64,000 bases of DNA from Methanomicrobiales archaeon HGW-Methanomicrobiales-2 (GTDB taxonomy: Archaea; Halobacteriota; Methanomicrobia; Methanomicrobiales; Methanoculleaceae): positions 1 through 64,000 of the forward strand of contig PGYL01000004.1 of NCBI GenBank assembly GCA_002839645.1, given 5' to 3'. Shown in pieces: positions 7,137-38,239 of the stretch. How positions within the stretch are numbered: position 1 is the stretch's first letter; the number at the start of each line of letters is the position of its first letter. The notes under the pieces were generated by a model. It made no database searches. It had not been told where the DNA came from and saw only the letters and a program-made list of their open reading frames with translations. Made by a program: the position numbers and the translations under genes.

Positions 7137-7431
7137 CAATATCCTCTCTCAAAGCAGCCAGAAACGAATATGGTGCCTAGACGTATAAGAGAATTTCGAA
7201 AAGAAATTCGCTATAAGCCTTCGATCCCAACGAGAGATCAACCGATACGAGACAATAAACTTTGGAACAGTCCGTCAGTTAGGAGACCATCGCCTTCCTC
7301 AAGGCATCGGCGAGCACGACAACTTGGGTGATACTTATTAAAAGACATTGCCTGGGTTGATGGTGCATCAATTCTCACTAAAATCGAAAAATGATGCGCG
7401 CCTGATAACCTGACAAAGTGTGATTTGGAGA

Positions 7432-8330: not shown

Positions 8331-8517
8331 TACATATGCGATACGATGAGATATACACATCTGAAAAGCGTATATATTTTTCCATTCCTCTCGCCTGGAG
8401 CATTTCTCTCCAGTGTTCGTCGCCCCCCCACCGGTGAAATGATCAAGAATACACACTTCAATTTAGAAATAGACTAATAACTTGGCTTTTTTAAGCCCCA
8501 GCCGGGCTATACACAGA

Positions 8518-15292: not shown

Positions 15293-15402
15293 GTGAGACA
15301 CTTGTTCTTCTGAGATAAAAAGAGAATTGCTTATGGTGTTTGGAAAAAGAACGTCTCTCTAATTCCAGTTACCTCTTTGGGGCAATTAAACCGGGTGGGC
15401 CT

Positions 15403-21300: not shown

Positions 21301-22844
21301 AAGGCGAGGCGGGGAACCCCTGGGGGGTCTCGTTTAAACAGGGATTGTTCAACATGACCAGTGATTCCCACCTCTTCCGCACGCGGGACGAGATGGAGGC
21401 GGCGGGGTTTTTGCTCGGTGGGAACCAGTTTGTGAAGGGGGAAGAGGTCTGGTTGCCGTTATATGAGGGTAGAATGATTAATCATTACGATCATAGAACT
21501 GCATCCGTTGGAGTGAATCCAGATAATCTATATCGCTCCGCAACAACAATTCAGACAAACGGCTCTGAACACGGCGATCCTACTTTTTGTGTACTGCCAA
21601 GATATTGGGTTAGCAAGAAAACATTTCAGGAGTCAGTGAGATCTCAGCATCCTAATTCGTATTTTATTGGATTTAAGGACGTTAGTAGCCCCACTAACGA
21701 AAGAACATTTATCAATGCTATCATTCCCTTTACCCCAGCGGGGAACAAAGTACCATTACTTCTAACAAATTGTGCCAAAGTGACCGCGATCCAGTTTAAT
21801 TCAAATCTTAGTTCACATATTTTTGATTTTACCGCTCGACAGAAAATGGGGGGAGTCTCATTGAATTTTTATATTGTTGAGCAACTCCCCGTCCTCCCCC
21901 CCTCCGCCTATACCCCCACCCTCACCAACTTCATCGCCCCCCGCGTCATTGAGCTCACCTACACCGCCTGGGACCTCGAAGCCTTCGCCCGCGACGTCCT
22001 CGCCGAGGTGGGCGTGACGCAGTGGAACGCCTGGTTCCCGCAGAACCCCGTAGGCGATGACGGCACGCCCCGGCCGTTCGCCTGGGACGAGGAGCGGCGG
22101 TTCGACCTCCGGTGCGATCTCGACGCCCTCTACTTCCACCTCTACGAGATCTCGCGGGACGACGTCGACTACATCATGGAGACCTTCCCCATCGTGAAGC
22201 GCAGGGACGAGGCGGCGTATGGGAGGTACCGCACGAAGGAGGTCATCCTCCGGAAGTACGACGACCTTGCCCGGGAGTTTGTGCGCGTGATGCGGGCCGA
22301 TCTTCCGGAGAAGGACGGGAAGCCTGACTGGACCGCGCTCATCGCCGGCGGCGAGAGCGAGCGGGTCGAGTTCAAGGAGTCGATGTCATGGGACCGGGGG
22401 CAAAAGCAGCGCAACAAAGCGCTCGAGCACACCATCGCGAGAACCCTTGCGTCCTTCATGAACACCCACGGCGGGGTGCTCTTCGTCGGTGTCGACGACG
22501 CCGGGACGATCGTCGGACTCGACGGCGACCTGAAACTCTCCCAGCGGAAGAACGAAGACGGCCTGCGGCTCCGGTTCGACGACCTGGTGAAGCAGTACCT
22601 CGGCAACCGGTTCCTCCCCGGGATCATGATCCACCCGCTCGAAGATGGCGGGAAGGCATTCTGGGCGGTTGAGGTCAGGGCTTCTAACGAGCCGGTGTTT
22701 GTGAAGAACAACGGCGACGACGAGTTCTGGATCAGGGGGACGTCGTCGTCGCGGAAGCTCTCGCTGAGCCAGGCCGTAGAATATATAAAGACTCACTTCG
22801 GTACCTCTTCTCAAGGAACGAATCCGGATTCCAAAGGATACTAA
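18303..22844 (+). CDS. Eco57I-type adenine-N6 DNA methylase with C-terminal AlbA_2 domain
   Basis: The 1513-residue product carries the adenine-N6 methyltransferase motifs VCDPACGSGAFLIAASNRLG (SAM binding, near residue 516) and CVLGNPPWEVMNL (catalytic NPPW, near 777). A long target-recognition region follows. The last 170 residues form an AlbA_2/Schlafen-type domain, beginning near GGESERVEFKESMSWD and including THGGVLFVGVDDAGTIVGLD. No PD-(D/E)XK nuclease motif is obvious. The size and pairing with a SNF2 helicase match DrmMI of DISARM class 1 and similar helicase-methylase systems. The stretch 21460-21870 is locally AT-rich, perhaps a swapped specificity segment. The start overlaps the helicase stop, and a ComF-like gene follows 12 bases on. 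Confidence 0.85.
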   Translation: MRGREQSFVRVSGGIVTEHFASLLQDEKHGFEYARPMTFVRPWREEDLPPQDEAQFLAQVRDVWERLLRRFDEKFRDIWSGKMSAEEVRRLWQRPVLDALGFEPTSTTKQIVISDRLKYRFSHRGWFAREGILKPPVIHILPPGTDPGARPSRGEPSPHDALQDCLNRHDATWAVLMNETVIRILRDYHHTTVPGYIEFDLEGIFLNRSFTEFLALYRFCHASRFARDPATGKEPLENYYEVSRQAGEKVGESLRANVVRAIEEFGNGSLDGSLIERLRGDDEACRAYYQEILTVVYRIIFMLFAEQRGMLGGGDHGDLFLEEYSITSLRERVDAFEGRDDRNTDLWEGLSVTFRMLEEGVPELGVNAFDGMLFSNDGVRFLKDTKCRNTALMNAIRSLTWTVPETGRGQRGHGRQRISYADLSVEEIGAIYESLLDYTPRITTGFEEVEGREYRPGQFMLDPRGSERKTTGSYYTNPDLIAELIKSALDPVMANRLSRAGPDPAAREKALLSIRVCDPACGSGAFLIAASNRLGRELAKIRTGTELPSAQEVQAARRDVLSHCIYGVDLNPMAVELARVSLWINALVGDKPLSFLDHHIKCGNSLVGATPELIAGGIPDEAYTPVEGDSKEVANRIKKANREQRQTRTFEEFSARSRVLEACAGRFAALAEASEDDPDSVEAKKTEYKRLIASSEYAKERLAADCWCAAFFWPLDAEYARTAPTTATARMVQASGGGMLVEDTLDEVRRIANEHRFFHWHLEFPEVFADGGFDCVLGNPPWEVMNLNEKEFFAFRAPAIAEAPGAKRKRLIENLKKSDPPLYNEYISALRDEQRSTLFIRGSGRFPLTAVGKTNTYSIFSELARKIISSRGRAGIIVPTGIATDATTAPFFGDMVESGSLVSLYDFENKEVIFPIHRSFKFCLLTMAGSEAATGAFDLAFFVHRIGDLHDDDRHFTLTPEEILLINPNTKNCPIFRSKRDAEITKAVYRRVPVLVNEGKGEAGNPWGVSFKQGLFNMTSDSHLFRTRDEMEAAGFLLGGNQFVKGEEVWLPLYEGRMINHYDHRTASVGVNPDNLYRSATTIQTNGSEHGDPTFCVLPRYWVSKKTFQESVRSQHPNSYFIGFKDVSSPTNERTFINAIIPFTPAGNKVPLLLTNCAKVTAIQFNSNLSSHIFDFTARQKMGGVSLNFYIVEQLPVLPPSAYTPTLTNFIAPRVIELTYTAWDLEAFARDVLAEVGVTQWNAWFPQNPVGDDGTPRPFAWDEERRFDLRCDLDALYFHLYEISRDDVDYIMETFPIVKRRDEAAYGRYRTKEVILRKYDDLAREFVRVMRADLPEKDGKPDWTALIAGGESERVEFKESMSWDRGQKQRNKALEHTIARTLASFMNTHGGVLFVGVDDAGTIVGLDGDLKLSQRKNEDGLRLRFDDLVKQYLGNRFLPGIMIHPLEDGGKAFWAVEVRASNEPVFVKNNGDDEFWIRGTSSSRKLSLSQAVEYIKTHFGTSSQGTNPDSKGY

Positions 22845-22856
22845 GGAGCGAAAAAT

Positions 22857-23549
22857 ATGGTGGAGGTTTTTGTAAGATCTGATGGGGTAAAACTTGAAAT
22901 TCTCTATCCGCCGTACTGTGTGGTGTGCGGCAATCCGATCCCGGACAGTTTTGCGAAGGCTCCTTACTGTGGAGTATGCAAAGATAGTCCGGAGAAGTAC
23001 GATCCGCCCTTCCGTGTCCGGGCATTCGGGAAGTATCTCTTTGAAGGCGAGTATCCTAATGACAGACTGAGTAAGGATATCCGCAGAATGAAGACAGATT
23101 CAACCATTATCCCGCTTCTTCAGGAGTGCTTGTATTACTCTATGGATCACCAGTATCCCGAACTGCGGGAGCTTGATGTCGTAGTCCCGGTAATGGGCGG
23201 GTCCAGTGGTAGAGGTTACAATCAGGCAGCACTCCTTGCCCAGGGTATTGCCTCCCGATATAATCTCCCGTGCAGGGATGTGATCTATACGAAGGCGCCT
23301 TATCGGCCAATGCACGAAATACATAACCTGGCAGAGAAAGAGAGAGAAATCGCGGGAAAAATTGGATGTAATTACCAATTTGAAGGTGAGTCCATCCTCC
23401 TCATCGACGATACATGCATTGATATGGTGACAAAACGTGAGTGTACTCAGGTGCTGCAAGCTCATGGAGCTGGGGATGTCTGGGCACTTGTTCTGGGGCG
23501 GATGGTTAACAGGAGACATTTGGGCTTCTTGAGGAGATACAATGGATAA
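22857..23549 (+). CDS. ComF-like zinc-ribbon phosphoribosyltransferase
   Basis: The 230-residue protein has a zinc ribbon (CVVCGNPIPD, then CGVCKD) followed by a type I phosphoribosyltransferase domain. It shows a VVVPVMGGSSGRGYNQAALL segment and a PRPP-loop-like strand ESILLIDDTCIDMVTKREC with two adjacent Asp residues. This is the ComF architecture. In bacteria ComF acts in DNA uptake; in archaeal defence islands such proteins are better viewed as nucleotide-binding or nucleotide-handling partners. AAGGAGCG precedes the ATG. It follows the methylase by 12 bases and overlaps the DprA-like gene by 8, so the four genes 15403-24495 form one operon. Confidence 0.75.
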   Translation: MVEVFVRSDGVKLEILYPPYCVVCGNPIPDSFAKAPYCGVCKDSPEKYDPPFRVRAFGKYLFEGEYPNDRLSKDIRRMKTDSTIIPLLQECLYYSMDHQYPELRELDVVVPVMGGSSGRGYNQAALLAQGIASRYNLPCRDVIYTKAPYRPMHEIHNLAEKEREIAGKIGCNYQFEGESILLIDDTCIDMVTKRECTQVLQAHGAGDVWALVLGRMVNRRHLGFLRRYNG

Positions 23550-24495
23550 TTTCTTCAGACAAGAGACCGCACTGCTCGCCTGCCTCAACGACAACCAATC
23601 CTTGAAAAAAAGGGAGAATATTGATTACTTCCGCGATCCGGCATCTATTCGCAACATATTCACCGATATCTTTGAAAATTACTCAAGCGCGCACAGAGAC
23701 TATCCGGAAGTAATCTTGCCCGTTATTGAAAAAGCTGAAGTTGCCCGGGAAAAGCAGCTCCTCGATCACTATATTGACGTCATCAAGCGATATCGACAGA
23801 AAAGCATCCATATTCTGCAAGTGACTGATAGGGATTACCCGCTGAAACTCGCGAGAATCCCTGATCCACCCTTTATGATCTATATAAAGGGCAGGATGGA
23901 AAGCCTTTCAAGACCTGCGGTTGCAATTGTCGGTACACGGGATATCAGTCCAGATGGTGCTGAGAAAGTCCAAGAGATTGTCGGATTCTTTGTACAACTC
24001 GGATATACAATTGTCAGTGGACTGGCGCTTGGAACGGACGCATGTGCTCATAAAGCCGCACTGGATCTTGGCGGTGAAACCATTGCGGTGCTTCCTGGAG
24101 ATATTGAAAACGTTGTTCCAAAAGAGAACCAGGAGCTCGCCGAGAGGATATCCAAATCAGGAGCGCTCATTAGCGAGATTACCCTTCTCACGAAAATGCA
24201 CAGAGGCCGATATATAGAGAGAAACCGTATCACGAGTGCCTTGTCCAAAGCCGTGATCGTGATCGAAACTGGAGAGTCCGGTGGCTCAATCCGGCAGGCT
24301 GAAACTGCTTTCAAGCAGGGGACGCCCGTATATGTGGTAAGGCCCGATAACACGAATGAAAGGGCAGTCGCCGGGTTTGATAAATTAGTCTCGGAAGGAG
24401 CAACTCCTATCAATAATCTGTATGACTTGTCCGCACACTTCGGAAAAGCGCAGAATACTACTTCACGAATGACAACACTCGCAGATTTTTCATAA
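23542..24495 (+). CDS. DprA/Smf-like Rossmann (SLOG) protein
   Basis: The 317-residue product has an N-terminal helical part (about 95 residues) and a DprA-type Rossmann domain. It contains DRDYPLKLARIPDPP, VAIVGTRDISPDG, IVSGLALGTDACAHKAAL, IAVLPGDIENVVPKENQELA and RNRITSALSKAVIVIE, all matching the DprA signature order. Bacterial DprA loads RecA on incoming single-stranded DNA. Related SLOG proteins in conflict systems bind nucleotides or cyclic nucleotides. No C-terminal winged helix is seen. GAGGAG precedes the ATG, and the gene overlaps the ComF-like gene. A DprA-ComF pair inside a helicase-methylase operon of a methanogen is unusual. Confidence 0.85.
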   Translation: MDNFFRQETALLACLNDNQSLKKRENIDYFRDPASIRNIFTDIFENYSSAHRDYPEVILPVIEKAEVAREKQLLDHYIDVIKRYRQKSIHILQVTDRDYPLKLARIPDPPFMIYIKGRMESLSRPAVAIVGTRDISPDGAEKVQEIVGFFVQLGYTIVSGLALGTDACAHKAALDLGGETIAVLPGDIENVVPKENQELAERISKSGALISEITLLTKMHRGRYIERNRITSALSKAVIVIETGESGGSIRQAETAFKQGTPVYVVRPDNTNERAVAGFDKLVSEGATPINNLYDLSAHFGKAQNTTSRMTTLADFS

Positions 24496-24635: not shown

Positions 24636-26381
24636 TTAAGGCTTTTCATGCATTATCTTCTGCAGCATCTGATTTACTTCCTGTATCGGGATTAACCCTT
24701 TCGAGGTGATATCAAAGGTCAGGAACCCGACCGGAACAATCTGCTGATCGCGGAATGCTTCCTCAAGCCAGAGCAGATCGCTCATATGTCTAATTGCGGC
24801 GACATTATCGATGACAATGTAAACTCTTGCAGAATCGCGATTAGATCTGTACTTCGCTATAGTCTCCGACAAATGGGCGATGAGCTCTCTCCCATTTCTA
24901 TCTCCAGCAAACAGCGTCTCTATCTCGTAATACCCATTGCCTTTCTTATCAAAAACGTCTGGAATGAAGTGTTCGGCACTGAAACTCGAATCTTGGGGTT
25001 TTTCAGTAAATATGGCTTCCTCTATCTCCGTAATATTCTTCAACTGATATTTTTCAGAGAGGTATCGGACAACATAGCACTTCATCCGATAGTGTTCATC
25101 GGACTCTTTGGATCTCTTTTTTGTTACTATCTGGTATAGCCTATTTTCTGCTTTGGTGAATGAGGAGAATTCTTTCTCATATTCCCCTCTACATATTTTG
25201 TTGAAGACTGCGTCTAAGTCATGTGAGGAGATATTCGTCTCTCTTCTTCCCTTATTTCGATTATACTGAATGACTACTCGAGGTTCTTCCTGACCTTGCC
25301 TACAATTTCCCCAGAAAACTGATGAAATCCATCTCTTTTCATCTATTGAATGGGAATTGGGCTTAACAACAAGAATGTCCAGGGGATGGCCGTTCTCGTG
25401 CGCGAGTTGCTCTTGAATCACTCGCCGGTAAGCCTCAAAATGATCCTCTCTCCGGGACTTGAAAATAATGAACCCATAATCTGCAGCAATTGCTCTCCCT
25501 ATGAAGTCACGCAGGTTTTTGGGTTTCAACCAATTCTCTACATCCGCCTGATTAAAGTAATCAAAATCCAGCGTGATAAGGTGACGGCCTGGATCTGCCC
25601 ACTTGTCTAAATAGATCACAATGGTTTCGTCCAGCCTGCTGACAGGCTGTAATCTCGGATCACCGCCTACCTGTTCCCGGTAGATACGTAGACAGCAGGT
25701 CTCAAAACTGGCCAGGGTATTATCCTCAGGTCGCTCTTTGTAGAGAATGATCTTTGGCCGCCGGGTCGATAGATCGTCGTTTTTGATCCCAAACAGGTAC
25801 TGCATGACCTCTGGAGGCTCCTCAGGTATGCCGGTGCCCCCTCCGGGGGGTGAATCTGGCAGGGTTGTTTCCGGGGTTTCCTCTATGTCTTCTCGATTAA
25901 CTGAAGTCTGCTCACGGAGTGTTGCGTATGTAGTGACCCAGCGCTCCTGAACATCGCTAACACATTCAGTCCAGGTACTATGGAGAACTGGAGCTGACTG
26001 TTGAAGACTCACCACAGGGACGTAAAAGCGGACATCTTCTTTTGGTATTGAGGGAATGTGATCGTCCAGCACAACTCTGTTCATGGTGATACTCCCCGGC
26101 CGTAAGCGGAGTATCGGCACGCTCAGGTCCAGACTGCTATGCCGGTGGATTTCAGAAATGGTGCAGTCAAATTCAATCTTGGAGAAGTATTCTTTTGCTT
26201 GTCCCGGTAACTTGACAATTGGGACGCTAACCGCAATATGTTCGCCTTCAAAATTAGAGAAATCTAATTCCAGCCCGTCATTCCTACCAGATTCTGGTTC
26301 CCGCCCGATATCTGCACTTATGCCCGGGGGGTGTCCATCGGGCATCTGCCCGCTGTTCTCTTTATTCACTTCCATGGACAT
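24636..26381 (-). CDS. Unknown 581-residue protein with PD-(D/E)XK-like C terminus
   Basis: I do not recognise this family. The first 40 residues are polar. Three short related segments follow: IAVSVPIVKLPG, LDLSVPILRLRPG and VRFYVPVVSLQQ. A Pro/Gly-rich linker (PPGGGTGIPEEPPE) joins to a 360-residue alpha/beta part. Near the end, SDEHYRMKCYVVRYLSEKY is followed after a loop by HFIPDVFDKKGNGYYEIETL. That is the helix-strand-strand order of PD-(D/E)XK nucleases, with PD and E-I-E but Thr where Lys is usual. Activity is therefore uncertain. GGGTGG lies before the ATG. It is last in the leftward run behind viperin, 36 bases after the previous gene. The 140 bases between it and the DprA-like gene show no gene. 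Confidence 0.6.
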   Translation of the reverse strand: MSMEVNKENSGQMPDGHPPGISADIGREPESGRNDGLELDFSNFEGEHIAVSVPIVKLPGQAKEYFSKIEFDCTISEIHRHSSLDLSVPILRLRPGSITMNRVVLDDHIPSIPKEDVRFYVPVVSLQQSAPVLHSTWTECVSDVQERWVTTYATLREQTSVNREDIEETPETTLPDSPPGGGTGIPEEPPEVMQYLFGIKNDDLSTRRPKIILYKERPEDNTLASFETCCLRIYREQVGGDPRLQPVSRLDETIVIYLDKWADPGRHLITLDFDYFNQADVENWLKPKNLRDFIGRAIAADYGFIIFKSRREDHFEAYRRVIQEQLAHENGHPLDILVVKPNSHSIDEKRWISSVFWGNCRQGQEEPRVVIQYNRNKGRRETNISSHDLDAVFNKICRGEYEKEFSSFTKAENRLYQIVTKKRSKESDEHYRMKCYVVRYLSEKYQLKNITEIEEAIFTEKPQDSSFSAEHFIPDVFDKKGNGYYEIETLFAGDRNGRELIAHLSETIAKYRSNRDSARVYIVIDNVAAIRHMSDLLWLEEAFRDQQIVPVGFLTFDITSKGLIPIQEVNQMLQKIMHEKP

Positions 26382-26417
26382 GTAAGAACCACCCTTTACG
26401 ATTCTTCGGACCTCTCA

Positions 26418-27539
26418 TTAGTCATAATGGGTGAAACAAACGTACAGCGTTGACCGATATCCAACCTCATTTCTCTCGTATATTGTGTGTGGCTGATGAC
26501 TTATCCCCAGACTCACCAGACCTATGAAGAGATAAGGAGCAGCGATACGGAGGAAATGCTGAAGGCTCATTTCACATGCACGGTAAAAGTTTCTCGAATT
26601 TCCGGCATACCCCAGAACATTGAGACCGTTATCAGTGAGGTAGTAACCCCGTGCTTCAAACGCCTCATTCATTGGTTTCAGACCGGGATTACTCGTTTGG
26701 ACGCTTTTGATGAACTCATCCCGAAGAGATGGAACTTGACCGTCGAATAATGCAAAGGTGGATAACTTATCCCAGCCAATCTGACTCAACTTATAAAGGC
26801 TGTCAGCGAATCCCTCTGGTGTATGTCCGATCAAAACCATATCGCCCTGATACGCTGTTTTGTCAACCTCGGGGATATCGGCCACTACTAGCCCTAATAC
26901 ATCTGCCACCGCGTCGAAATGTGTTCTTAACCGCGGATAGGCTTCAAGAAGGAAAAATTTTGGCGTTAGGCGAGTACTCATGGCAAAGAACGTATGATAG
27001 TTGTATGTCGCTGAGATCTTGATCAATTGAGAATATATCGTCTCGAATTCGTCTATAATACTCTCTGGTTCCTGAATGAAACCGCTGAGAACATCCTCAT
27101 CAATTTCAGGAAGATCATGGCCTACCGCTCTGAGCATGTTACCGCTTAAACTGAGAACCTTGCTCAACCCATCAGGGATCAGCGGTTGAGAGAAGTGAAC
27201 CTCGATATGGTAGAGGGTTTCAGTACCGGGCTCCTTACATAACGAAACCCAGAGATGTGGATCGATGTAGACCCCAATACGTTCTTTATACAACCTGGCT
27301 AGGCTATTCTCAGCATATTCACCATCTGGGGTTATTCCCCCGAGAAGTATCTTCTGGATACCCTTATTCTCTAAAAACGCGTCTGTAAAAGAACTCTCCA
27401 ATTTCCCCTTTAAATATTGAGAGAACTTAGTAATCTTAAGCGCTGCAGTGTGGAGGGGGAGAATCTCCGAGGTGGCAAATTCTTTCCAAGCGCCCTTATC
27501 GGTATAATCGAAACCAAGCACTTCATCATACGTGGTCAT
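26418..27539 (-). CDS. Unknown 373-residue protein of the viperin gene run
   Basis: No family is recognised. The sequence is a mixed alpha/beta, soluble protein without a signal peptide. It has a central acidic part (GHDLPEIDEDVLSGFIQEPE) and a C-terminal half with hydrophobic strands (YLFIGLVSLGISHQPHTIYE). I see no P-loop, HEPN or nuclease motif. The start is either the ATG at 27539 (MTTYDEVLGFDY) or a GTG three codons earlier; GGTG lies about 8 bases before the ATG. It sits 258 bases after the TPR-HEPN gene and 36 bases before the nuclease-like gene on the same strand. Confidence 0.6.
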   Translation of the reverse strand: MTTYDEVLGFDYTDKGAWKEFATSEILPLHTAALKITKFSQYLKGKLESSFTDAFLENKGIQKILLGGITPDGEYAENSLARLYKERIGVYIDPHLWVSLCKEPGTETLYHIEVHFSQPLIPDGLSKVLSLSGNMLRAVGHDLPEIDEDVLSGFIQEPESIIDEFETIYSQLIKISATYNYHTFFAMSTRLTPKFFLLEAYPRLRTHFDAVADVLGLVVADIPEVDKTAYQGDMVLIGHTPEGFADSLYKLSQIGWDKLSTFALFDGQVPSLRDEFIKSVQTSNPGLKPMNEAFEARGYYLTDNGLNVLGYAGNSRNFYRACEMSLQHFLRIAAPYLFIGLVSLGISHQPHTIYERNEVGYRSTLYVCFTHYD

Positions 27540-27797
27540 ATCCAGCACCAGACAACCGAGTGGTTGGTGAATAAGGCGATATAACTTCCGTTTACATCTT
27601 AAAATACGAATGCGATGTCTTACCTACCTAGGCAACCGGAAAACTGGAGAAAATTCCACCATCACTAAAAATAGTTCCAATATGGAGATTTTCGTTGTGC
27701 TGGCCGATTTATTGAGAGGGCGATCGTTCGGACGTCCGGCTGTCCATTTTTTCCTTCAGATCAATATCCGCCCTCCCAACCCAGATGTATCCCGCAA

Positions 27798-30755
27798 TCA
27801 CGCAGATTGGGAATCACCGCCTGATCTGGAGACTATGCCGATGATATCGTTGATGATCTTCACCATCTCGCCCCTCTTCTCCATCACTTCATCCCTGCTG
27901 TAGAACGAGATGTGCGCCGCCCCATTCCGCTCAAGAGAAAGGTCCCGGCACAGTTTACCGAGCTCATTGAGAGTATTCATAGAGAACCCTCTCTCCTGTA
28001 GCATATCAGAGAACGCTAGGGTAACCGGGTTTGCCCGGGTCTTCCTGATGTCGTTGCTGAGGTATCCCCACTGACCAAGGGCAAGCGACTTTTCATCGTT
28101 ACCAAGCACAGTCTTCAGGGTGAACGGGAGGCGAGGAATCTTCTTTTCATCAAACCCCTTCCAGAACATTGCCCGGACTCCATCATGCGGGTCACTGCAG
28201 AACATGTTGTCCGACCGGATCCGTTCACGGATGGGAAGAAGAAGGCTCTCATGAAGCAGTTTCTCAACGCCCTTCCCGTACTGAATAACAACCGGTCCGA
28301 GATCGTAGATCCCCCTCTCAGGCCCCTTATACACGCTGAAGAGCAGCCAGTCCCCGGTCCTGAAGATAGAGCGGATCTCCTCCGAACTGATGCGTGGTAA
28401 GCCGATGACGTGGGCTGAGAGCATATCGATCTCCCCTTTAAGATCTCGATACGCCTCATTATCAGGATCCAGCTCACATGCCTTGCTGATATCGGCGCTG
28501 GCGCGGTCATATTCCATCAGACAGGTGTGGCAGCGTGCCATGCCGACATACACATCAGGAAGTTCCGGGTCGTTCTCCTGTGCGTGCTTGAACCACTCAA
28601 CCGCGGCTCTGTGATCGCCTTCCATGAAGAACGACTCAGCGATCATACAGAGTATCCGAGTTCGTTCAGATGGAGTTTCAGTCCTCTCAAGAGCTGCCTG
28701 GAACCATTGCCGTCCCTCACTGCTCATACTGTGCCCGAGAAACGCATCTCCTATAAGGAGAGCCGGGTTGCCGGGAAGACCTATCGAGATGAATTCACCT
28801 ATAAATGCCTGTATAAATTGGGTCGAAAGAGTGGGATTATGCCACGTTGCCGTCTCATACACTACCGGTTTAAGGACAACGTCATATGCCTGCTCACCTT
28901 CCTCACAATGTCTGCCGCCCCAACAGTGGAAGGCGGTGCGGATCGACTCGATCGCCTCCGGGACTACCTCCCCACTGGCCCACGTGCTGAGCAGTGCAAT
29001 AGACATCCAGCGGAACGTATCCTCTTCGGGTTCATCTCCATACTCCACAGCACGCCGATAGAGTTCGATTGCCTGACCGATCTGTCCCTTATGCCTGTAT
29101 AGAGCCGCCTTCTCCTGATACAGTGCTGAAGTTGGGCGTAATAAAATGAGTCGCTCAATCCACCGGGAGGCATCTGCATGTTGAAATGATCGAACCGCAT
29201 TTACATAGCGCCGCCCATAGACCTCTGCCCGCTCGCGGGCTTCGATATCTCTGATCCCGTGGAAGTCGGTGTCGTCGAGATTTATATTGAATAACTCCAA
29301 TCTTTCAAGCGATGGGCCGAGTTTGGGATTGTCCAGATCAGCCAGCGATGTAAACTCGATGAGATAGGTATATTCCAGATCATGGTGTCCAGTTCGGCGG
29401 CAGGCCTCAGCGAGATTGTATATAACGGATGCGCGAATCTCCGATGGACGTTGTTTCGCATCCATCTCAATCCTAGCGATCTCCTTTCGAAAGACCTCGC
29501 TTCCGCTCATATAATACCGCATCTCGGCGCAGTTCTTCCGCTCAATAAGCTCCTTATAGATGCGATTCGCGAGATCGAGTTTCTTTGTCAGCTTCAGGGC
29601 GATCTCATACCACTTAAGGGCGGCTTTGTAGTCCTCGAATTCGCGATAGCAGGTTGCAACGGCACTGGCAATGAAATATTTTTTGTCCCCGATCTTCTCG
29701 CGCGAGTATGCATACTCCCCTATCTTTGCGGCATGCTCATAGAGGGTTGCATAGAACAACTGATTCTGTTTGTTCAGAAAATACCATGACAGATCCAGAC
29801 CCAGATTGGCAAGTGGAGACAGCATATCCTCCCTTATCGTGAAGGGATAATCTCCGTTCAGGACCGCCACCTTTTCTTCACGGGACAGGGTTAAAAACCA
29901 CTCATATCCTGCGATGGTAGTCAGGTCAACCTCAAACTTCCAGAGGGCCGCAGGGTCCTTGTGCTCGGCATACAAGTCAATTATACTCTCCCCAAATATC
30001 GCCTTTTCAAGCGTATGCTGGAATGGGAGCATCCATACAATGCACTCATGAAGGGACATCTCAGGGAGGGCCTGATCACTTGTGGCAAAGTACCTCCCCC
30101 GGAACTTGAGGTTCTGGAAGAGGTATCTCTGGGAGGCGAGAAGAATATCTCCGGTGAAGCCAGCCGCTGGAAAAAGAGGGTCATCAGAGCCCATCTGGTG
30201 ACCATAGTAGCGACCGGTCTTCAGGTCGAGCATCAGGCGGCGTATCGCTATAATCTCCAGGTCATTGTCAACCCTGCTCTCTGCGTCCTCCAGGCGTCCC
30301 TGGAGGTATCGCATCTTACTCTCGCGTTCCCGTTCAGTACGGTCCTTGTTGTATTGGTCTATCTCTGCCGGGTCCTTCAAGTAGAGTGCGGCCTCTTCAA
30401 ACGGGTTTTTACCCTCCCTGATCGCCTTCTGCATGATCTCGGTCGAGCCCTTGGGACCAAGAGGTTCATCATCAGAGTATGAAATCCGGGCAGTCTCTCC
30501 GAAGAGAAGGAGAACAATCTCCCGTATTCTCTGCTGAACGGCAGCGTTGCCGTTTACAGCACCCATAACATGTAAAACAAATCCAGGGTCCCTTTTGTAG
30601 CGGACCAGCAGCCAGTTATCTAGTGCATGGTCGATAAACCGATCACGCTTCTCTTCATGTGAAATGTCCTGAACTGACCGGAGAAACTCACGATCAGAAT
30701 AAACGGAGTATGACTCCCAGAGAAAGTCCCTGACTATAGTTGTATTCAGCTCCAT
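27798..30755 (-). CDS. TPR-repeat protein with C-terminal HEPN-like RNase motif
   Basis: The 985-residue product has about 310 residues of helical N terminus, then multiple tetratricopeptide-like repeats. Clear units are IASAVATCYREFEDYKAALK, AALYRHKGQIGQAIELYRRA, FFMEGDHRAAVEWFKHAQEN and GMARCHTCLMEYDRASADIS. The last 130 residues contain VEKLLHESLLLPIRERI and end with LSLERNGAAHISFYSRDEV. The R-N-x3-H spacing (Rx4H, Arg near 943 and His near 948) with a polar residue after Arg is the catalytic signature of HEPN RNases. TPR arrays usually bind a trigger or partner. GAGGGG lies six bases before the ATG. A GTGA overlap at the stop opens a 30-codon frame whose reality is uncertain. The HEPN call is a motif-level inference. 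Confidence 0.7.
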   Translation of the reverse strand: MELNTTIVRDFLWESYSVYSDREFLRSVQDISHEEKRDRFIDHALDNWLLVRYKRDPGFVLHVMGAVNGNAAVQQRIREIVLLLFGETARISYSDDEPLGPKGSTEIMQKAIREGKNPFEEAALYLKDPAEIDQYNKDRTERERESKMRYLQGRLEDAESRVDNDLEIIAIRRLMLDLKTGRYYGHQMGSDDPLFPAAGFTGDILLASQRYLFQNLKFRGRYFATSDQALPEMSLHECIVWMLPFQHTLEKAIFGESIIDLYAEHKDPAALWKFEVDLTTIAGYEWFLTLSREEKVAVLNGDYPFTIREDMLSPLANLGLDLSWYFLNKQNQLFYATLYEHAAKIGEYAYSREKIGDKKYFIASAVATCYREFEDYKAALKWYEIALKLTKKLDLANRIYKELIERKNCAEMRYYMSGSEVFRKEIARIEMDAKQRPSEIRASVIYNLAEACRRTGHHDLEYTYLIEFTSLADLDNPKLGPSLERLELFNINLDDTDFHGIRDIEARERAEVYGRRYVNAVRSFQHADASRWIERLILLRPTSALYQEKAALYRHKGQIGQAIELYRRAVEYGDEPEEDTFRWMSIALLSTWASGEVVPEAIESIRTAFHCWGGRHCEEGEQAYDVVLKPVVYETATWHNPTLSTQFIQAFIGEFISIGLPGNPALLIGDAFLGHSMSSEGRQWFQAALERTETPSERTRILCMIAESFFMEGDHRAAVEWFKHAQENDPELPDVYVGMARCHTCLMEYDRASADISKACELDPDNEAYRDLKGEIDMLSAHVIGLPRISSEEIRSIFRTGDWLLFSVYKGPERGIYDLGPVVIQYGKGVEKLLHESLLLPIRERIRSDNMFCSDPHDGVRAMFWKGFDEKKIPRLPFTLKTVLGNDEKSLALGQWGYLSNDIRKTRANPVTLAFSDMLQERGFSMNTLNELGKLCRDLSLERNGAAHISFYSRDEVMEKRGEMVKIINDIIGIVSRSGGDSQSA

Positions 30756-30873
30756 TGCAATCCCCTCAGTGTTTTTGACGGGCCGGGAACCACCTCAGTC
30801 CTCGATCGCGATTGAAAATGGGGGTACGGGAGATATAAACCCCTACATTCGTGTTCCAGTAAAAGAACCCCCA

Positions 30874-31707
30874 TCACCACGCGTACACTCCCCCTCTGTT
30901 AAGATACAGCATCTCACTGATATACTCCGCAATCCCCACCTGCAAAACGTCTTCAAGGGGATATTTCCGGACCACCCGCCCGGTATCAGTCTTTACACAC
31001 CCGCCGGGGGTGATCATGAAATATGATCCCTCGATCATGGTGGCTGACTCAAACACCGGCTCGACACCTCTGCGAAGTACAATACCCGCATGACGGTCGT
31101 AGAACGCCTGGAACTGCTCATCGGTTACTGCAAGGTCGGCTACCGCATCATCATTTTCGCCCTGTATGTGGAGCATCTGGAGGACCTTCCAGCGATCAGG
31201 AGATGTTCTACTGATGAAGTCTGCCATATCCTCCTCCCACGTAAGCCTGGTGACCGTTGTATTGATCTTCAGTCGGATCCCGGCTTCCCTGACGGCATCC
31301 GACAGATCAATACAGTGCTGGACATGCTCTCCATAACCGCGCCCGAGGTGTTTCTCGGTAGACTCGGATGCCGAGTCCACTGATAGCGCGATCCAGTCAA
31401 TACAACTCATATGGTCCTCGATCATCTTCTCTGTGAGCAGTGAGCCGTTTGTGGTGATTGAAACGACCATTCCGGCATCATGGCCCGCACGGCAGTAATC
31501 AAAGAGTCGAGGGTGCAGCAGGGGTTCACCGCCCGCAAAGTTGATCTTCTCCATTCCCGCGTCAGCAAGATGTGAGAGGATTGCCAGACCTTCGGAGAAA
31601 GATACTGGTTTTTCACCAAGATTTCGGGCAAAACAGAAGCGGCAGGAGTAGTTGCAGGCAGAGATCAGGTGCCAGTTGACGGACCGGATAGCGGAGTGCG
31701 CAGGCAT
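30874..31707 (-). CDS. Prokaryotic viperin (radical SAM ddhNTP synthase)
   Basis: The 277-residue product has the radical SAM cluster Cys-x3-Cys-x2-Cys at residues 18-25 (ISACNYSCRFCFARN) and viperin-type signatures throughout. These are SVNWHLISACNYSC, GMEKINFAGGEPLLHPRLF, IALSVDSASE, RLKINTTVTRLTWEEDM, DRWKVLQMLHIQGEND and a C-terminal EGSYFMITPGGCVKTDTGR. They match human viperin block for block (KINFSGGEP, KINSV, RWKVFQ, GEN). Viperins turn CTP, GTP or UTP into 3'-deoxy-3',4'-didehydro nucleotides that terminate viral RNA chains. The nucleotide preference cannot be read here. It is first in a leftward run with the TPR-HEPN gene 118 bases on, and divergent from a CARF regulator. No nucleotide kinase gene is adjacent. 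Confidence 0.9.
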   Translation of the reverse strand: MPAHSAIRSVNWHLISACNYSCRFCFARNLGEKPVSFSEGLAILSHLADAGMEKINFAGGEPLLHPRLFDYCRAGHDAGMVVSITTNGSLLTEKMIEDHMSCIDWIALSVDSASESTEKHLGRGYGEHVQHCIDLSDAVREAGIRLKINTTVTRLTWEEDMADFISRTSPDRWKVLQMLHIQGENDDAVADLAVTDEQFQAFYDRHAGIVLRRGVEPVFESATMIEGSYFMITPGGCVKTDTGRVVRKYPLEDVLQVGIAEYISEMLYLNRGGVYAW

Positions 31708-31743
31708 GTATTACGACTCTAAAAGGAAAAACTATCACCCTTC

Positions 31744-31762
31744 TTTGAAATTGTTTTTCAAA
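31744..31762. promoter_or_regulatory. Inverted repeat between viperin and CARF regulator genes
   Basis: TTTGAAA (31744-31750) and TTTCAAA (31756-31762) form a perfect 7-bp dyad with a 5-base spacer. It is in the 94-base region between the two divergent start codons. It overlaps or flanks the expected basal promoter of viperin and lies 10 bases before the TATA box of the CARF gene, so it is a candidate operator for the CARF-wHTH protein. Confidence 0.45.
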
Positions 31763-31771
31763 TAGGAAACA

Positions 31772-31780
31772 AAATATACA
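31772..31780 (+). promoter_or_regulatory. TATA box of the CARF regulator
   Basis: AAATATACA is centred about 26 bases before the ATG at 31802, the distance expected for a leaderless archaeal transcript. No ribosome binding site precedes that ATG, which agrees. Confidence 0.5.
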
Positions 31781-31801
31781 ACTCCGATACATCTTCTCCG
31801 T

Positions 31802-32584
31802 ATGAGCCGTCCGCACCTTCTCTTCATGAGTGCAGGAGAGCGTATCAACCAGACCTTCCCTATCTGTGTGAAAAGACTCGAAGGAATCACCCATACGTTC
31901 ATTGTGGTCGAAGAGGGGGTCTATCGCGACCTGCCGGACGACCCTGAACACCTGAGGTCGGTAAAACCACAGATCCGCCAGGCCATCGACAATGTACGAG
32001 CAATCTGCGAGCCGATGGCGATCTCATTTGCCGTAATCCGGACACCCGATACAACGATCCATTCCATCCGTGACGCTATCCTCACCACTTCCCGCTATTA
32101 CCCTGAGGCGCGCTACTCGTTCAATCTGAGTGGAGGGACAAAGATGCTCTCCCTCTCCCTCTTCATCATGGCCCTCTGGCTCGATGCCCAAATCTACCTG
32201 ACCCCATCAGGCGATCGCATCGAACAGGTTCTCATACCGAGAATGCACCTTGATGATGTGAGAAGAAACCCAAACTACGTAACTGCCCTCTCAATCCTTT
32301 CACGATGGGACATGGGCAGCTGGACAACACGGCAGGAATTTGGCAGAGAAATGGAGAAACAGTATCGACCTTCAAGACTCGCAGACGACCCCGGAGTTAC
32401 CCGCAGTCCCAACCGCGGGACAGTCACAAAGATCCTGCAACAACTCATTGAGTGGAGCCTCATTGAGGAGTCGTTCTGCCACAATAGTAGAAAAGCAAAA
32501 CAATACCGGTTGACGCAACATGGTGAGTTTGCCTGGAAGGTGTTACAAGCGGAGGATAGGGATATTGTACGCGAAGAAGGATAG
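31802..32584 (+). CDS. CARF domain transcriptional regulator with winged helix
   Basis: The 260-residue product has an N-terminal Rossmann-like CARF domain. The opening strand LLFMSAGERINQTF and the signature RYSFNLSGGTKMLSLSLFIM correspond to the ligand-binding loops of Csa3/Csx1-type CARF proteins. The C-terminal 90 residues form a winged helix (SPNRGTVTKILQQLIEWSLI, then KQYRLTQHGEFAWKV). CARF domains bind cyclic oligoadenylates in type III CRISPR signalling, and the wHTH would couple binding to transcription. It is divergent from viperin and is probably its regulator. No cas10 or CRISPR array is in the window, so the signal source is unseen. The ATG at 31802 fits a leaderless promoter. 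Confidence 0.8.
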   Translation: MSRPHLLFMSAGERINQTFPICVKRLEGITHTFIVVEEGVYRDLPDDPEHLRSVKPQIRQAIDNVRAICEPMAISFAVIRTPDTTIHSIRDAILTTSRYYPEARYSFNLSGGTKMLSLSLFIMALWLDAQIYLTPSGDRIEQVLIPRMHLDDVRRNPNYVTALSILSRWDMGSWTTRQEFGREMEKQYRPSRLADDPGVTRSPNRGTVTKILQQLIEWSLIEESFCHNSRKAKQYRLTQHGEFAWKVLQAEDRDIVREEG

Positions 32585-32658
32585 TTGCACAGCCCGGAAA
32601 CAGTTCCCGGACACTCTCAAGAGGTTTCCATCGAACTCATATGATGGAGGTGAGAGAT

Positions 32659-32878: not shown

Positions 32879-35800
32879 ATGACAAATACCAGTTTTGACC
32901 CGGTAACGGCCCTCGATACAGTTGCCGGCGCATATCGAACCTTCGTCAGTTCTTTCCAGAAATTCAAGAACCCTGTCATCAAAGAATGGATCGACAGAAA
33001 GATTGAGGAAGGAACGCTCCTCTACAAAGGCCCGTACATCGAGCTTGCCCGCCGGTACGCCGATGGAGACTCCTTTGACAACCTCATTGGAGCGGGTATC
33101 CTCCATCCAGAAACCTCGCAGTACTTCACCAGGGACCCGGAAGACCGGTCATCCTCTCCGGTCCGCCTCTACCAGCACCAGAGCGATGCAATACGATCGA
33201 TAGTATCGGGAAAAAACACTGTCGTCACATCAGGAACCGGCTCCGGGAAATCCTTCTGCTTTGCAATACCCGTCGTCTCCACATGTCTTGAGATGCAGGA
33301 CCGGGGCCTCCGGGGCATCAAGGCAATCCTCGTCTACCCGATGAATGCGCTCGCAAACTCCCAGTATGACGACCTCTCGGCCCGCCTGGACGGCTCGGGT
33401 TTGAAGATCGCCATCTACACCGGCGATACTCCGCACACCTACAACGAAGCGCTCATCACATACCGGGCGCGGACCGCGCGAGATGCTCCCTATGATAGCG
33501 AGCTCATCTCACGGGAAGAAATCCAGCGAACTCCTCCGGACATCCTGATCACCAACTATGTAATGCTCGAGTACATCCTCACCCGATTTGAGGACAAGAT
33601 CCTCTTCCCGCCGGAGAACCTCGGCATTCTCAAATACCTCGTCCTCGACGAGATCCACACCTACACCGGGAAGAAGGGGGCCGACACTGCGTACCTCATC
33701 CGGAGGCTGAAACAGCACACTGGAACCACCGGGGCGCTCCGGTGCATCGGGACCAGTGCGACCGTGAGAGAGGGAGAGGGTGAGGAGGCAGGAGAGGCCA
33801 TCGCAAGGTTCGCCGCAAAACTCTTTGGTGAACCCTTTGACAGTACATCGGTCATCGGAGAGACATTCCTCCTCCCGCCCCGCGGCACGGAGAGCAAGCT
33901 TCCCAACAGGGTTCTCGTCGGCGACGACCTGCTCAAAGTAAGGGATCCCGGCAGGGAGTACCTGAAGGAACTCACCGAACAACTCATCGGCGAGCCGCTT
34001 GGGATCCAGGATCCCTCTGCTGCCTACCTCGGGGAAACCCTCGGGTCGCAGAAGACCGTCCAGTTCATCGAGGACCAGCTTGCTGATGAACCAAAGAGCA
34101 TTCCCGACCTGATCCGCATATATCGCGCGACCGTCAGGCAAGATGCCACGTATGAAGAGGCAGCCCGGGAGATCGAGGCTGCATTCATTGCAGGCATGCT
34201 CAGCGAGGTGCCTGTTGGGGATACCCTCCAGAAACGGTTCATCCCCAAGATGCACATGTACTTCTCGCAAGGGAGGGAGATCAAGTGTTGCCTCTCTCAC
34301 GACGGCCCTCACCTTCACGATGCCGGCGAAGTCACCTGCCCCGTCTGCGCAGAGAGAGGACGAACACGGATCACCTTCCCCATGGTCTTTTGCCGGGCAT
34401 GTGGTCAGGAATATTACAGCATCGAGCTCCTGGCCGATGGGACAGTCAGGCCACGTGATCTGGATGCTCCCGCGCAAGAGGGCGAGGCCCTGTACCTCTA
34501 CCTGGGGGAGTTTCGTGAGGGAAGGGCATCCCCGCCGGAGTGGTGGTGTACCGATTCCGGAGCAGTCAAAGAGAAGTATCGCACCATAGTCACTCCGCGG
34601 ACTGGCACTTACTGCCCGGACTGCAACAGGTTGCTTGTTGACGGAGAAGAGGGAGAGATATGCCTGTGCCCGGAGAAGATCCGTGTCACCCTCATCGAAA
34701 TGCCGTTCCGGTTCTGCCCAAGTGAAGGCTGCGGCGTATCCTATGACCTGAGAACGCGGAGGGAGTTCAACAAACTATTCTCCTTTGGCACCGTGGGGAG
34801 ATCTACCGCTACCGATATTTTGGTCTCGAATATGCTCACCACCCTCCCTGAAAACGAGCAGAAAGTCATCGCATTCTCTGACAACCGGCAGGATACAGCC
34901 CTACAAGCAGCCCACATGAACAACATTCAGAAGCGGATCCACTTCAGGCGGGGCCTGTATCATGCCTTGGCTCAGGCAGAGGGCTCTCTCCCCCTCACCG
35001 ACGTAGGGGACGCCATCTTTGACACTTTTATAGAATGTCGTGCAGACGGCGCTCTCCCTCAATACGAGAAAGATCCCGGTCGGGGCAGAATGCGGAGGGG
35101 CTCACAGGCCGAACCAGTGTATAGGAAATACCTCCTGATGAATGCCATCCTCGAGATGGGCTCAACACGTCAGAAGAACCAGCCGAACCTTGAGGATGTT
35201 GGCCTGTTGAAGGTCACCTATATTGGGCTTGCAAATCTCGCTGAGGATAATAATCTCTGGGAGGGCATCCCCAATCTCTCACTGGCAGGTCCCCGCAGGC
35301 GGGAGGATTACCTGAAGGGGTTCCTGGACATTATGCGCCATAATCTTGCTATCTCCTCTGACTTCTTCATGCATCCCTTTGAGTTTGCCGAAAAGATTGA
35401 GCGGTTCCTGAACCCCGATATCATATTCCACAACGAACTGCTCTCCACGCGGCCAACCGGGTACAGCGACAACGCGCGGAGAGAAACCTATCGGGCTACG
35501 GTCTACCGTCTCACTCACCCGAACGGATCGCTGGTTCGCTGGACAAAGAAGTCCCTGGGGACAGAGACTGCTGAAGAAGCGCAACAGATCGTCGAACATG
35601 TAGAAGCAGTGCTTGCCGCTGAAGGTGGGCTGAAGCAGGAGCGTATCGACCGGGTTGGAACCCTCTCCATGATCAACCCCGATATCATCGAACTCTCGCT
35701 CGCTCCTCCCGGAGAGGTGCAGGTCTGCAGGAAATGTGGGCAGGTGACCCACTTCCATGAACTCAATCTCTGCATCAACCCGAACTGCACCGACCTTATC

Positions 35801-38239
35801 ACGCTCGACCTCTCCAACAACTACTTCCGGCAGGAGTATACAAGGTCGTTCCGGGAAGCGGTCCAGCTCCATGCGGAGGAGCACAGCGGACAGATCGACG
35901 GGGAGACCCGGAAACTGCTTGAAACCCGGTTCAGGGATTCGCAGGATAACCTGAACGTAATCGTATGTACCCCTACGATGGAGCTGGGTATCGATATCGG
36001 AACCCTTTCGGCTGTCTATTTGAGGAATGTCCCTCCATCGCCCTCCAACTATGCTCAACGTGCTGGACGAGCAGGACGAAAGTCGCAGGCCTCGATGATC
36101 CTCACATTCTGTGGTGTCGGCTCACGCCGCGGTCCCCATGACCAGTACTTCTACCGGTATCCGGCAAAGATGATCTCCGGAAAGATCGCCTCCCCCCGGT
36201 TCCTGATGGATAATCGGATGCTTATCCGTGCGCATATCCATTCCCTCATTCTTGAGATCATCACTCTTAAAATCCCGCAGAAGATCGATGGCATACTCGA
36301 CTTCGAGAAGGAAAACCTCCCGATGTTCACGGAGAACATCCCGGGTGTGGAGGAAGGCCTCAGCAGAACCCGCCTTAGTGAGATGATCGGGGAGCACCGG
36401 GTGCAGATCCTGAATGCAATCAACGAGGTGCTTGCGGAAGAGAAGCAGTCCCTCGGCTGGCTTGACGACACCTTCATCGTACAGACTGTCGGTTCGTTTG
36501 TCACCTCGTTTGATGGCGCGTTCAACCTCTTCAGGGGTGAATTTTCAGCCCTCCTCAAAGAACTGGACGAGATTAACATCTTCCTGCAGAGGGGCCGGAT
36601 CTCTGAGCGACAGAGGGGCGCCTACAAGCGAAGGCGGGACTCGATCGAAAAGAAACTGAACGATATGCGGAACGGCGGCGGGGACTTTACGACCTATCGG
36701 TATCTTGGCTCACAGGGGTTCCTCCCCAACTATGGCTTCCCCACACAGGTTACATCTCTTGCAATCAACTACAAGGGGGTCTTTGGGTCAGAAGAAGCAG
36801 AGCTGAAGCGGGATCGCAACATCGCGCTGGTAGAGTACGCCCCCGGCAACAGTGTGTACTTCAGCGGGAATCGGTACTCGGTCAGGACTCCCCGGCTCAG
36901 GACCGAGAACAACCAGCCTGCAATGAGCACTGTTCTTACTTGCCCGTACTGTGAGGCGGTCTATCTGGATGAGAAGGAGATCTCAATGACCGGTGGTGCC
37001 TGCAGGAGTTGTGGCGCATCCTTGGAGAGTGCAGTAGTGATTCACCACTCAATTGAGATGCCCGACCAGCTGGCGGAGTCTAGATCGACGATCACGAGTG
37101 ATGAGGAGGAACGGCAACGTCTCGGCTATGAGGTCACCCGCCACTATACCCCCTCAGGCACACGGCAATTTTACGTGGTGGGAGACCCCGGCGAACCGCT
37201 GCTCACCATCTCCTACGACCATTCGGGAAAGATCGTCAGCATCAATCACGGCCCAATACCGTCTGATAAAGATGAACCACAGTCGGGTTTCACGCTCTGC
37301 ACGGCATGTAACCGCTGGATTTTCGGGAAGGATGGAGTGAAAGACCATCTGGACCCAAAAAACGAGATGAAACGGTGCTGGAGGAATGGGACAGAGGAGA
37401 ATATTATCAGGAATATTGTCCTCTACACTAACACCCGACATGATGTTGTCAAGATTGATGTGCCCACTCTGCTTGATAGTGAGGGAAATCCGCTAGATGA
37501 AGAGTTGTATCGATCGTTCTTTACAACACTTGCTCAGGCGATCATCGAGGGTGTACAGATCAGCATGAATGTCGGTGTAGATGAGATCCGATACTTCCTG
37601 ATGCCGGATCCCCAGAATAGGAAGAAGTCAAGCATCATCCTCTACGAGACTTCAGAAGGGGGTGCTGGAATACTGGAGTCGATTGCTGATCATTCCACGT
37701 TCCACGAGGTTATCAGACAGGCGCTGACTATCCTTCACGAATACGATGAGAAAAAGTGTGACCGGGCGTGCTACGAATGCCTATGTAACTACTACAACCA
37801 GTTCGACCATGATCTCCTCGACCGGAAACTTGCACTCCCTCTCCTCCGGGATCTCCTCACACCAGGGATTCAGACAGTCCCTGATTCCTCTCCTTCAGCT
37901 AAGAAAATGCTTGAGGATCTACTAAAAACGTGTGAATCATCGTTAGAACAAACAGTTCTTGAGAGCATTTACTTAGCGGGTCTGCCTCTCCCGGACAGCG
38001 GGCAGAAGGTCATTACAGAGGGAGGGGAGTTGATTGCCCGCCCTGATTTTGCCTACCAGGAGAATGGACACTCAATTGTGATATTTGTTGATGGTCCTGA
38101 CCATGATAACGAATCACAGAAGAGAGATGATGAGATGAAGAGAGACAGACTCGATTTAATGGGGTATACTGTATTCACAATACACTACCGGGATGACCTT
38201 CAGGTAAAGATAAATGATCTAGCAGAACTATTGCTATAA
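32879..38239 (+). CDS. DUF1998 superfamily 2 helicase with C-terminal nuclease-like domain
   Basis: The 1786-residue product has a DEAD/DEAH helicase core split over a long insertion. Motif I is VVTSGTGSGKSFCFAI (near residue 118), the DEIH box is YLVLDEIHTYTG (near 257), and motif VI is YAQRAGRAGRKSQA (near 1058). Zinc-binding Cys pairs appear in the insertion and near 1354 (CPYCEAVY, CRSCGAS). A DUF1998 domain follows (CDRACYECLCNYYNQF near 1625). The last 95 residues (ARPDFAYQENGHSIVIFVDG, then PDHD and MGYTVFTIHY) look like a Vsr/DUF559-type endonuclease fold. Size and DUF1998 resemble DruE of Druantia and relatives of MrfA/DrmB, but no Druantia partner is present. A TATA-like TAATACTTATT lies about 35 bases before the ATG. 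Confidence 0.8.
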   Translation: MTNTSFDPVTALDTVAGAYRTFVSSFQKFKNPVIKEWIDRKIEEGTLLYKGPYIELARRYADGDSFDNLIGAGILHPETSQYFTRDPEDRSSSPVRLYQHQSDAIRSIVSGKNTVVTSGTGSGKSFCFAIPVVSTCLEMQDRGLRGIKAILVYPMNALANSQYDDLSARLDGSGLKIAIYTGDTPHTYNEALITYRARTARDAPYDSELISREEIQRTPPDILITNYVMLEYILTRFEDKILFPPENLGILKYLVLDEIHTYTGKKGADTAYLIRRLKQHTGTTGALRCIGTSATVREGEGEEAGEAIARFAAKLFGEPFDSTSVIGETFLLPPRGTESKLPNRVLVGDDLLKVRDPGREYLKELTEQLIGEPLGIQDPSAAYLGETLGSQKTVQFIEDQLADEPKSIPDLIRIYRATVRQDATYEEAAREIEAAFIAGMLSEVPVGDTLQKRFIPKMHMYFSQGREIKCCLSHDGPHLHDAGEVTCPVCAERGRTRITFPMVFCRACGQEYYSIELLADGTVRPRDLDAPAQEGEALYLYLGEFREGRASPPEWWCTDSGAVKEKYRTIVTPRTGTYCPDCNRLLVDGEEGEICLCPEKIRVTLIEMPFRFCPSEGCGVSYDLRTRREFNKLFSFGTVGRSTATDILVSNMLTTLPENEQKVIAFSDNRQDTALQAAHMNNIQKRIHFRRGLYHALAQAEGSLPLTDVGDAIFDTFIECRADGALPQYEKDPGRGRMRRGSQAEPVYRKYLLMNAILEMGSTRQKNQPNLEDVGLLKVTYIGLANLAEDNNLWEGIPNLSLAGPRRREDYLKGFLDIMRHNLAISSDFFMHPFEFAEKIERFLNPDIIFHNELLSTRPTGYSDNARRETYRATVYRLTHPNGSLVRWTKKSLGTETAEEAQQIVEHVEAVLAAEGGLKQERIDRVGTLSMINPDIIELSLAPPGEVQVCRKCGQVTHFHELNLCINPNCTDLITLDLSNNYFRQEYTRSFREAVQLHAEEHSGQIDGETRKLLETRFRDSQDNLNVIVCTPTMELGIDIGTLSAVYLRNVPPSPSNYAQRAGRAGRKSQASMILTFCGVGSRRGPHDQYFYRYPAKMISGKIASPRFLMDNRMLIRAHIHSLILEIITLKIPQKIDGILDFEKENLPMFTENIPGVEEGLSRTRLSEMIGEHRVQILNAINEVLAEEKQSLGWLDDTFIVQTVGSFVTSFDGAFNLFRGEFSALLKELDEINIFLQRGRISERQRGAYKRRRDSIEKKLNDMRNGGGDFTTYRYLGSQGFLPNYGFPTQVTSLAINYKGVFGSEEAELKRDRNIALVEYAPGNSVYFSGNRYSVRTPRLRTENNQPAMSTVLTCPYCEAVYLDEKEISMTGGACRSCGASLESAVVIHHSIEMPDQLAESRSTITSDEEERQRLGYEVTRHYTPSGTRQFYVVGDPGEPLLTISYDHSGKIVSINHGPIPSDKDEPQSGFTLCTACNRWIFGKDGVKDHLDPKNEMKRCWRNGTEENIIRNIVLYTNTRHDVVKIDVPTLLDSEGNPLDEELYRSFFTTLAQAIIEGVQISMNVGVDEIRYFLMPDPQNRKKSSIILYETSEGGAGILESIADHSTFHEVIRQALTILHEYDEKKCDRACYECLCNYYNQFDHDLLDRKLALPLLRDLLTPGIQTVPDSSPSAKKMLEDLLKTCESSLEQTVLESIYLAGLPLPDSGQKVITEGGELIARPDFAYQENGHSIVIFVDGPDHDNESQKRDDEMKRDRLDLMGYTVFTIHYRDDLQVKINDLAELLL

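Follow-up and report, generated by a model that had tools for sequence, protein, structure and literature searches.

A stretch of 64,000 nucleotides from Methanomicrobiales archaeon HGW-Methanomicrobiales-2 (contig PGYL01000004.1, positions 1 to 64,000; hereafter the window) encodes a prokaryotic viperin and a transcription regulator with a CARF domain, transcribed in opposite directions from a shared intergenic region. The regulator (31802-32584, plus strand; 260 amino acids, aa) joins its CARF domain to a winged helix-turn-helix (wHTH) domain and is Csa3-like. The viperin, a radical S-adenosylmethionine enzyme (30874-31707, minus strand; 277 aa), is followed on its strand after 118 bp by a 985-aa TPR-repeat protein with a C-terminal HEPN-type motif (27798-30755). 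Farther along the minus strand are a 376-aa protein (26418-27548), which begins at a GTG codon and would be 373 aa long if an internal ATG were used, and a 581-aa protein (24636-26381). An earlier note, made from the sequence alone, had described this minus-strand order and two divergent starts separated by 94 bases. Both are confirmed, with the gap at 31708-31801 and all five genes in the places given there.

The viperin annotation is supported by NCBIfam NF038283 (266.2 bits; cut-off 180), by the PADLOC pVip model PDLC02903 (258.7 bits), and by matches to the solved viperins 6b4c and 5vsl in the PDB. The CxxxCxxC iron-sulfur motif is intact (CNYSCRFC), and we predict that the enzyme makes chain-terminating ddhNTPs (3'-deoxy-3',4'-didehydro-nucleoside triphosphates). 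In G019 an additional viperin-like gene is degenerate and lacks CxxxCxxC; it lies beside a HEPN-domain protein (PF05168; locus L112, 10774-11517 and 11528-12658). The TPR protein of the window matches the PADLOC model "TPR" (PDLC02907) over the entire model (1047.8 bits; positions 1-864 of 864), as well as TPR families in Pfam. Residues R943, N944, and H948 (RNxxxH) are invariant across the family alignment; they form a HEPN catalytic-type motif, R-N-x3-H, at residues 943-948 (27912-27929, minus strand), in agreement with the Rx4H motif of the earlier note.

The regulator matches PADLOC model PDLC02909 ("Csa3") over its full length with 323 bits. Against the CRISPR Csa3 model the same protein reaches only 17 bits, and the match to TIGR01884 (Csa3), at 15.2 bits, is under the cut-off of 60.2. 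Based on this difference in score, and because its accession number falls among those of the viperin models, PDLC02909 is probably PADLOC's viperin-associated CARF. An AlphaFold2 model of the protein has a mean predicted local distance difference test score (pLDDT) of 89.9. The top PDB match of this model in Foldseek is 6w11, a Sulfolobus Csa3 with cyclic tetra-adenylate (cA4; E value 2.3e-7), and the remaining top matches are mostly further CARF proteins. Eighteen homologues keep the CARF motif, which comprises SAG close to the N-terminus and N-x-[ST]-[GA]-G-T. Because the best structural matches are Csa3 with cA4 and other CARF proteins, and because the motif is conserved, we conclude that the regulator has a CARF fold with a wHTH domain, as in Csa3; structure prediction thus did not refute the earlier note, which had made a missing CARF pocket one of its tests. 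A PDB profile search with the family returned only MarR-like wHTH matches; it was the model that gave the CARF fold.

With Csa3 (2wte, 6w11; PMC8699464, PMC8844856) the regulator shares the combination of CARF and wHTH folds, a palindromic candidate operator, and a closest solved structure with cA4 in the pocket. Unlike Csa3, it has no cas genes as neighbors in the window and scores below the TIGR01884 cut-off; no Cas10 or RAMP protein of a type III system was found in the genome, and the operator sequence differs. Members of the same CARF-wHTH family also occur in other settings. Genomes of genus g34 (loci L120-L125) have up to six such genes, most without a viperin nearby, and one of these adjoins genes for a PAS histidine kinase and an H+-pyrophosphatase. 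In G305 (L202, 8923-9666) a family member is divergent from a type I restriction-modification cluster rather than from viperin.

The pairing of regulator and viperin is widely conserved. In a sample of 232 genomes of the class, 22 hold viperin, in 25 loci overall, and a CARF gene adjoins viperin in 20 of these loci, in many genera. This is far above a computed chance estimate. When CARF-family loci were sampled in another class, viperin adjoined in seven of eight. The viperin lies beside the TPR protein in all 13 loci of the window's type (type A). The conserved neighborhoods that the earlier note had suggested searching for across genomes are therefore present, and co-occurrence is strong. 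All five viperins without a CARF neighbor are divergent from a different protein of about 560 aa (L126, 9922-11589; L127, 10103-11770; L128, 7568-9343; L129, 7536-9236; L130, 7318-8991). The one member tested has no Pfam or PADLOC match. Its N-terminus is wHTH-like, and it may be an alternative regulator.

As far as catalogues go, the composition of the locus is not new. In PADLOC-DB, the models PDLC02903, PDLC02907, and PDLC02909 cover the whole of the viperin, the TPR protein, and the CARF protein, respectively. A TPR-associated viperin type, reported from archaea only, appears in a 2026 Nucleic Acids Research survey of archaeal immunity (PMC12988326, citing Bernheim et al. 2021). The locus shares with that type the viperin, the full-length TPR protein, the "Csa3" CARF protein, and an archaeal host. 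It thus belongs to an antiviral type of archaea that is already in the catalogues, contrary to the initial impression that no such system had been described. In the accessible literature (Bernheim 2021 and Shomar 2024 were not compared) we found no description of the role of the CARF partner, the operator, the missing cyclase, or the swapping of cassettes.

That swapping is evident among the 20 CARF-viperin loci of the class, 13 of which have the TPR-HEPN protein and six a helicase and phospholipase D (PLD) cassette; one (in G019) has another arrangement. The alternative cassette encodes a MkoA-like helicase, an uncharacterized protein, a PLD protein, and often a small CARF protein that stands alone. 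The cassettes swap several times along the viperin tree (four changes for the TPR group and three for the helicase group), and sister viperins, those of G062 and G093 for example, bear different cassettes. The stable unit is therefore CARF plus viperin, and the effector cassette is exchangeable. The helicase and PLD genes recall Mokosh (MkoA helicase and MkoB PLD protein), from which the alternative cassette differs in having an extra uncharacterized gene and CARF proteins; this cassette is absent from the window. The stand-alone CARF-only proteins, of about 160-175 aa, are encoded between viperin and helicase (L114, 3605-4090; L115, 10045-10575; L116, 8438-8923; L118, 6990-7508). In the other class, several of the CARF loci next to viperin add the viperin-associated kinase VakA (PDLC02911), and three add a second viperin. 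These loci combine CARF, viperin, VakA, TPR, and sometimes a second viperin, as in kinase-linked viperin systems, whereas the window locus has no VakA. In the three with a second viperin (L196, L199, and L201), a VakA-type kinase gene separates the two viperin genes, and the TPR gene comes next.

The 376-aa and 581-aa proteins raise the question of where the system ends. The earlier note had treated all five genes as a single module, and they could in principle constitute one five-part antiviral system with RNase and DNase effectors; the same strand and order are indeed found both here and in G046. We consider this quite improbable. The other 11 type-A loci lack the pair, and it follows an intact TPR gene only in the window locus and in G046; in G056 and G018 it persists next to remnants of a TPR gene, and a search found no viperin there. 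Of 393 genomes of the phylum, 22 encode a homologue of the 376-aa protein, and a 581-type gene then follows in nearly all intact loci, with no viperin seen adjoining in the pair loci examined elsewhere in the phylum. In the window, a 249-bp gap precedes the pair. We therefore rejected the five-gene module and interpret the pair as most likely a two-gene system of its own, of an unclassified family, beside the viperin locus.

The 376-aa protein has no match in Pfam, PADLOC, or NCBIfam, a PDB profile search with its family gave no match, and no relative was found in the viral contigs searched. For the 581-aa family there is no Pfam match above chance in any member and no convincing PADLOC match, and the AlphaFold model is too poor for use (pLDDT 35). 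In an alignment of 13 members, K434, D475, E486, and E488 are invariant (D...E-x-E, with the lysine upstream). The C-terminal region may be a variant of PD-(D/E)XK, with the aspartate, the ExE, and an upstream lysine in place of the canonical ExK; on this point the earlier note was partly right. In G123 a gene for an AAA+ ATPase comes after the pair.

Between the divergent CARF and viperin starts we identified an operator-like near-palindrome, GAAAYWGTTT-N9/10-GAAACWATTT (31747-31775). Candidate sites were ranked with a leave-group-out position weight matrix across about 17-30 kb per locus. The operator-like site ranks first in nine loci, including that of the window, second in four, and third in one, and in most homologous loci it begins about 54 bases ahead of the CARF start (-54). 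It is the sole match with no more than one mismatch in the 2.78-Mb genome, where two others have three mismatches; 0.02 chance matches are expected in the window. An operator-like site is also top-ranked at the same position in G422 and G472, which belong to the other class and lay outside the training of the matrix. A possible weaker second copy occurs at the CARF stop codon (32579-32607; rank 6 in the window locus). Eleven of the 20 loci have a similar copy, ranked 2-12, at -16 to +22 relative to the CARF stop, and we only tentatively regard this second copy as real.

What the regulator might sense was approached through the distribution of known synthases. The 18 genomes with the CARF-viperin pair were searched for Cas10 (PF22335), RAMP proteins (PF03787), mCpol, and SMODS CD-NTases. 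One possibility is that a type III CRISPR complex acting in trans supplies the regulator with cyclic oligoadenylate, as for Csa3 in Sulfolobales, so that the regulator couples CRISPR sensing to viperin. The top structural match, Csa3 with cA4, favors this, as does the presence of both Cas10 and RAMP proteins in three genomes (G087, G118, and G194). Neither marker was found in the other 15, including the window genome (99.5% complete) and several single-contig genomes; the search did not extend to cas1 or CRISPR arrays. Moreover, genomes with the pair are not enriched for Cas10 (3 of 18 genomes versus 18 of 214; Fisher p 0.21). A type III source in trans is therefore unlikely.

Other cyclases fared no better. 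No mCpol or SMODS CD-NTase passed the cut-off in any of the 18 genomes. We rejected mCpol as a source, its sole weak match being the Cas10 of G194. CD-NTases were likewise rejected: the SMODS matches were weak (20-25 bits, below cut-off) and fell in open reading frames of mostly about 460-490 aa, a size typical of CCA-adding enzymes in archaea; we therefore left them out of the count. The earlier note had looked to a cyclase or type III locus elsewhere in the genome, and in the window genome Cas10, RAMP, mCpol, and SMODS CD-NTase were all not found. Because none was found, the genome's own enzymes of these kinds (type III Cas10, mCpol, SMODS-type CD-NTase) are not the source of the ligand. Conceivably, the ligand of the CARF domain is a nucleotide that requires no dedicated cyclase, such as a ddhNTP in a feedback loop, another change in the nucleotide pool, or a nucleotide made by the invader. 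Consistent with this, the CARF pocket motif is conserved while the genome has no known cyclase, the CARF-viperin pairing is kept though cassettes change, and the pair is sometimes linked to VakA. A novel or undetected cyclase is equally possible, and we entertain a cyclase-free ligand only tentatively.

Taking the locus as a whole, we favor, with a probability of roughly 0.68, a dedicated, ligand-controlled CARF switch on the divergent promoter that governs viperin and a swappable effector, with the 376/581-aa pair being separate. The CARF-wHTH regulator, acting as a dimer, probably binds the palindromic operator and would thereby control both its own gene and a viperin-TPR transcription unit. 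During infection, a small nucleotide ligand in the CARF pocket would switch the regulator. Viperin would then make its chain-terminating nucleotides, and the TPR-HEPN protein would serve as a second, RNA-cleaving effector, together presumably protecting the cell from viruses. Part of this scheme was already in the earlier note, in which an infection signal acts through CARF on viperin and an RNA-cleaving effector. The note is partly supported: the divergent CARF-viperin arrangement with a TPR-HEPN partner is real and recurs across many genera; the idea of a signal made by a cyclase elsewhere in the genome was not sustained.

Several observations weigh against the proposed switch. No known synthase for a CARF ligand is encoded in the genome. 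In G062, G066, G118a, and five of seven viperin loci of the other class the operator is missing or only weakly matched, so its tie to the CARF family is partial. A PDB profile search with the C-terminus of the TPR protein gave only chance-like matches and no HEPN structure. Finally, with 118 bp between the viperin and TPR genes, their co-transcription is no more than likely.

The genes flanking the core are of types associated with defense. The five genes are surrounded by a restriction-type island, which on one side holds a DrmD-like SNF2 helicase (15340-18306, plus strand; PADLOC DrmD, 388.6 bits) and a DrmMI/type IIG-like DNA methyltransferase (18303-22844, plus strand; PADLOC DrmMI, 292.8 bits), the latter also present in G046, G095, and G105. 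On the other side of the core, a 1786-aa DruE-like DEAD helicase with an MZB domain (32879-38239, plus strand; Pfam DEAD and MZB; PADLOC DruE, 442 bits) adjoins the CARF gene, as it does in G046, G095, G105, and G122. The likeness to DISARM and Druantia is confined to these DrmD-, DrmMI-, and DruE-like neighbors, which lie outside the viperin core. ComF-like and DprA-like genes occupy 22857-24495, between the methyltransferase and the 581-aa gene, and G095 has a DprA homologue at the same position. Farther upstream of the island, a TIR-domain protein with an ATPase domain (4521-7139) and a phage-type integrase (8482-9786) are encoded; their presence suggests that this region is mobile or defense-rich.

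This setting bears on whether the locus could instead serve housekeeping nucleotide metabolism, given that radical S-adenosylmethionine enzymes of this kind and CARF domains both act on nucleotides. The patchy distribution (22 of 232 genomes), the partner swapping on the viperin tree, and the DrmD-, DrmMI-, and DruE-like neighbors all argue for antiviral defense, and Asgard viperins are reported to be active against phage T7 in Escherichia coli (PMC11291487). A housekeeping role is thus very improbable.

More speculatively, the CARF-wHTH proteins of archaeal viperin loci may be cyclase-independent sensors, for example of ddhNTPs or of an infection-altered nucleotide, that drive viperin and interchangeable cassettes; this would be CARF signaling outside CRISPR. 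To our knowledge, CARF domains are understood almost wholly as receivers of the cyclic oligoadenylates of type III CRISPR systems. Here, a CARF regulator is tied tightly to viperin in many archaea that lack known synthases. Identification of its ligand would bring to light either a signal or a synthase that is new, and with it an explanation of how an archaeal viperin is switched on.

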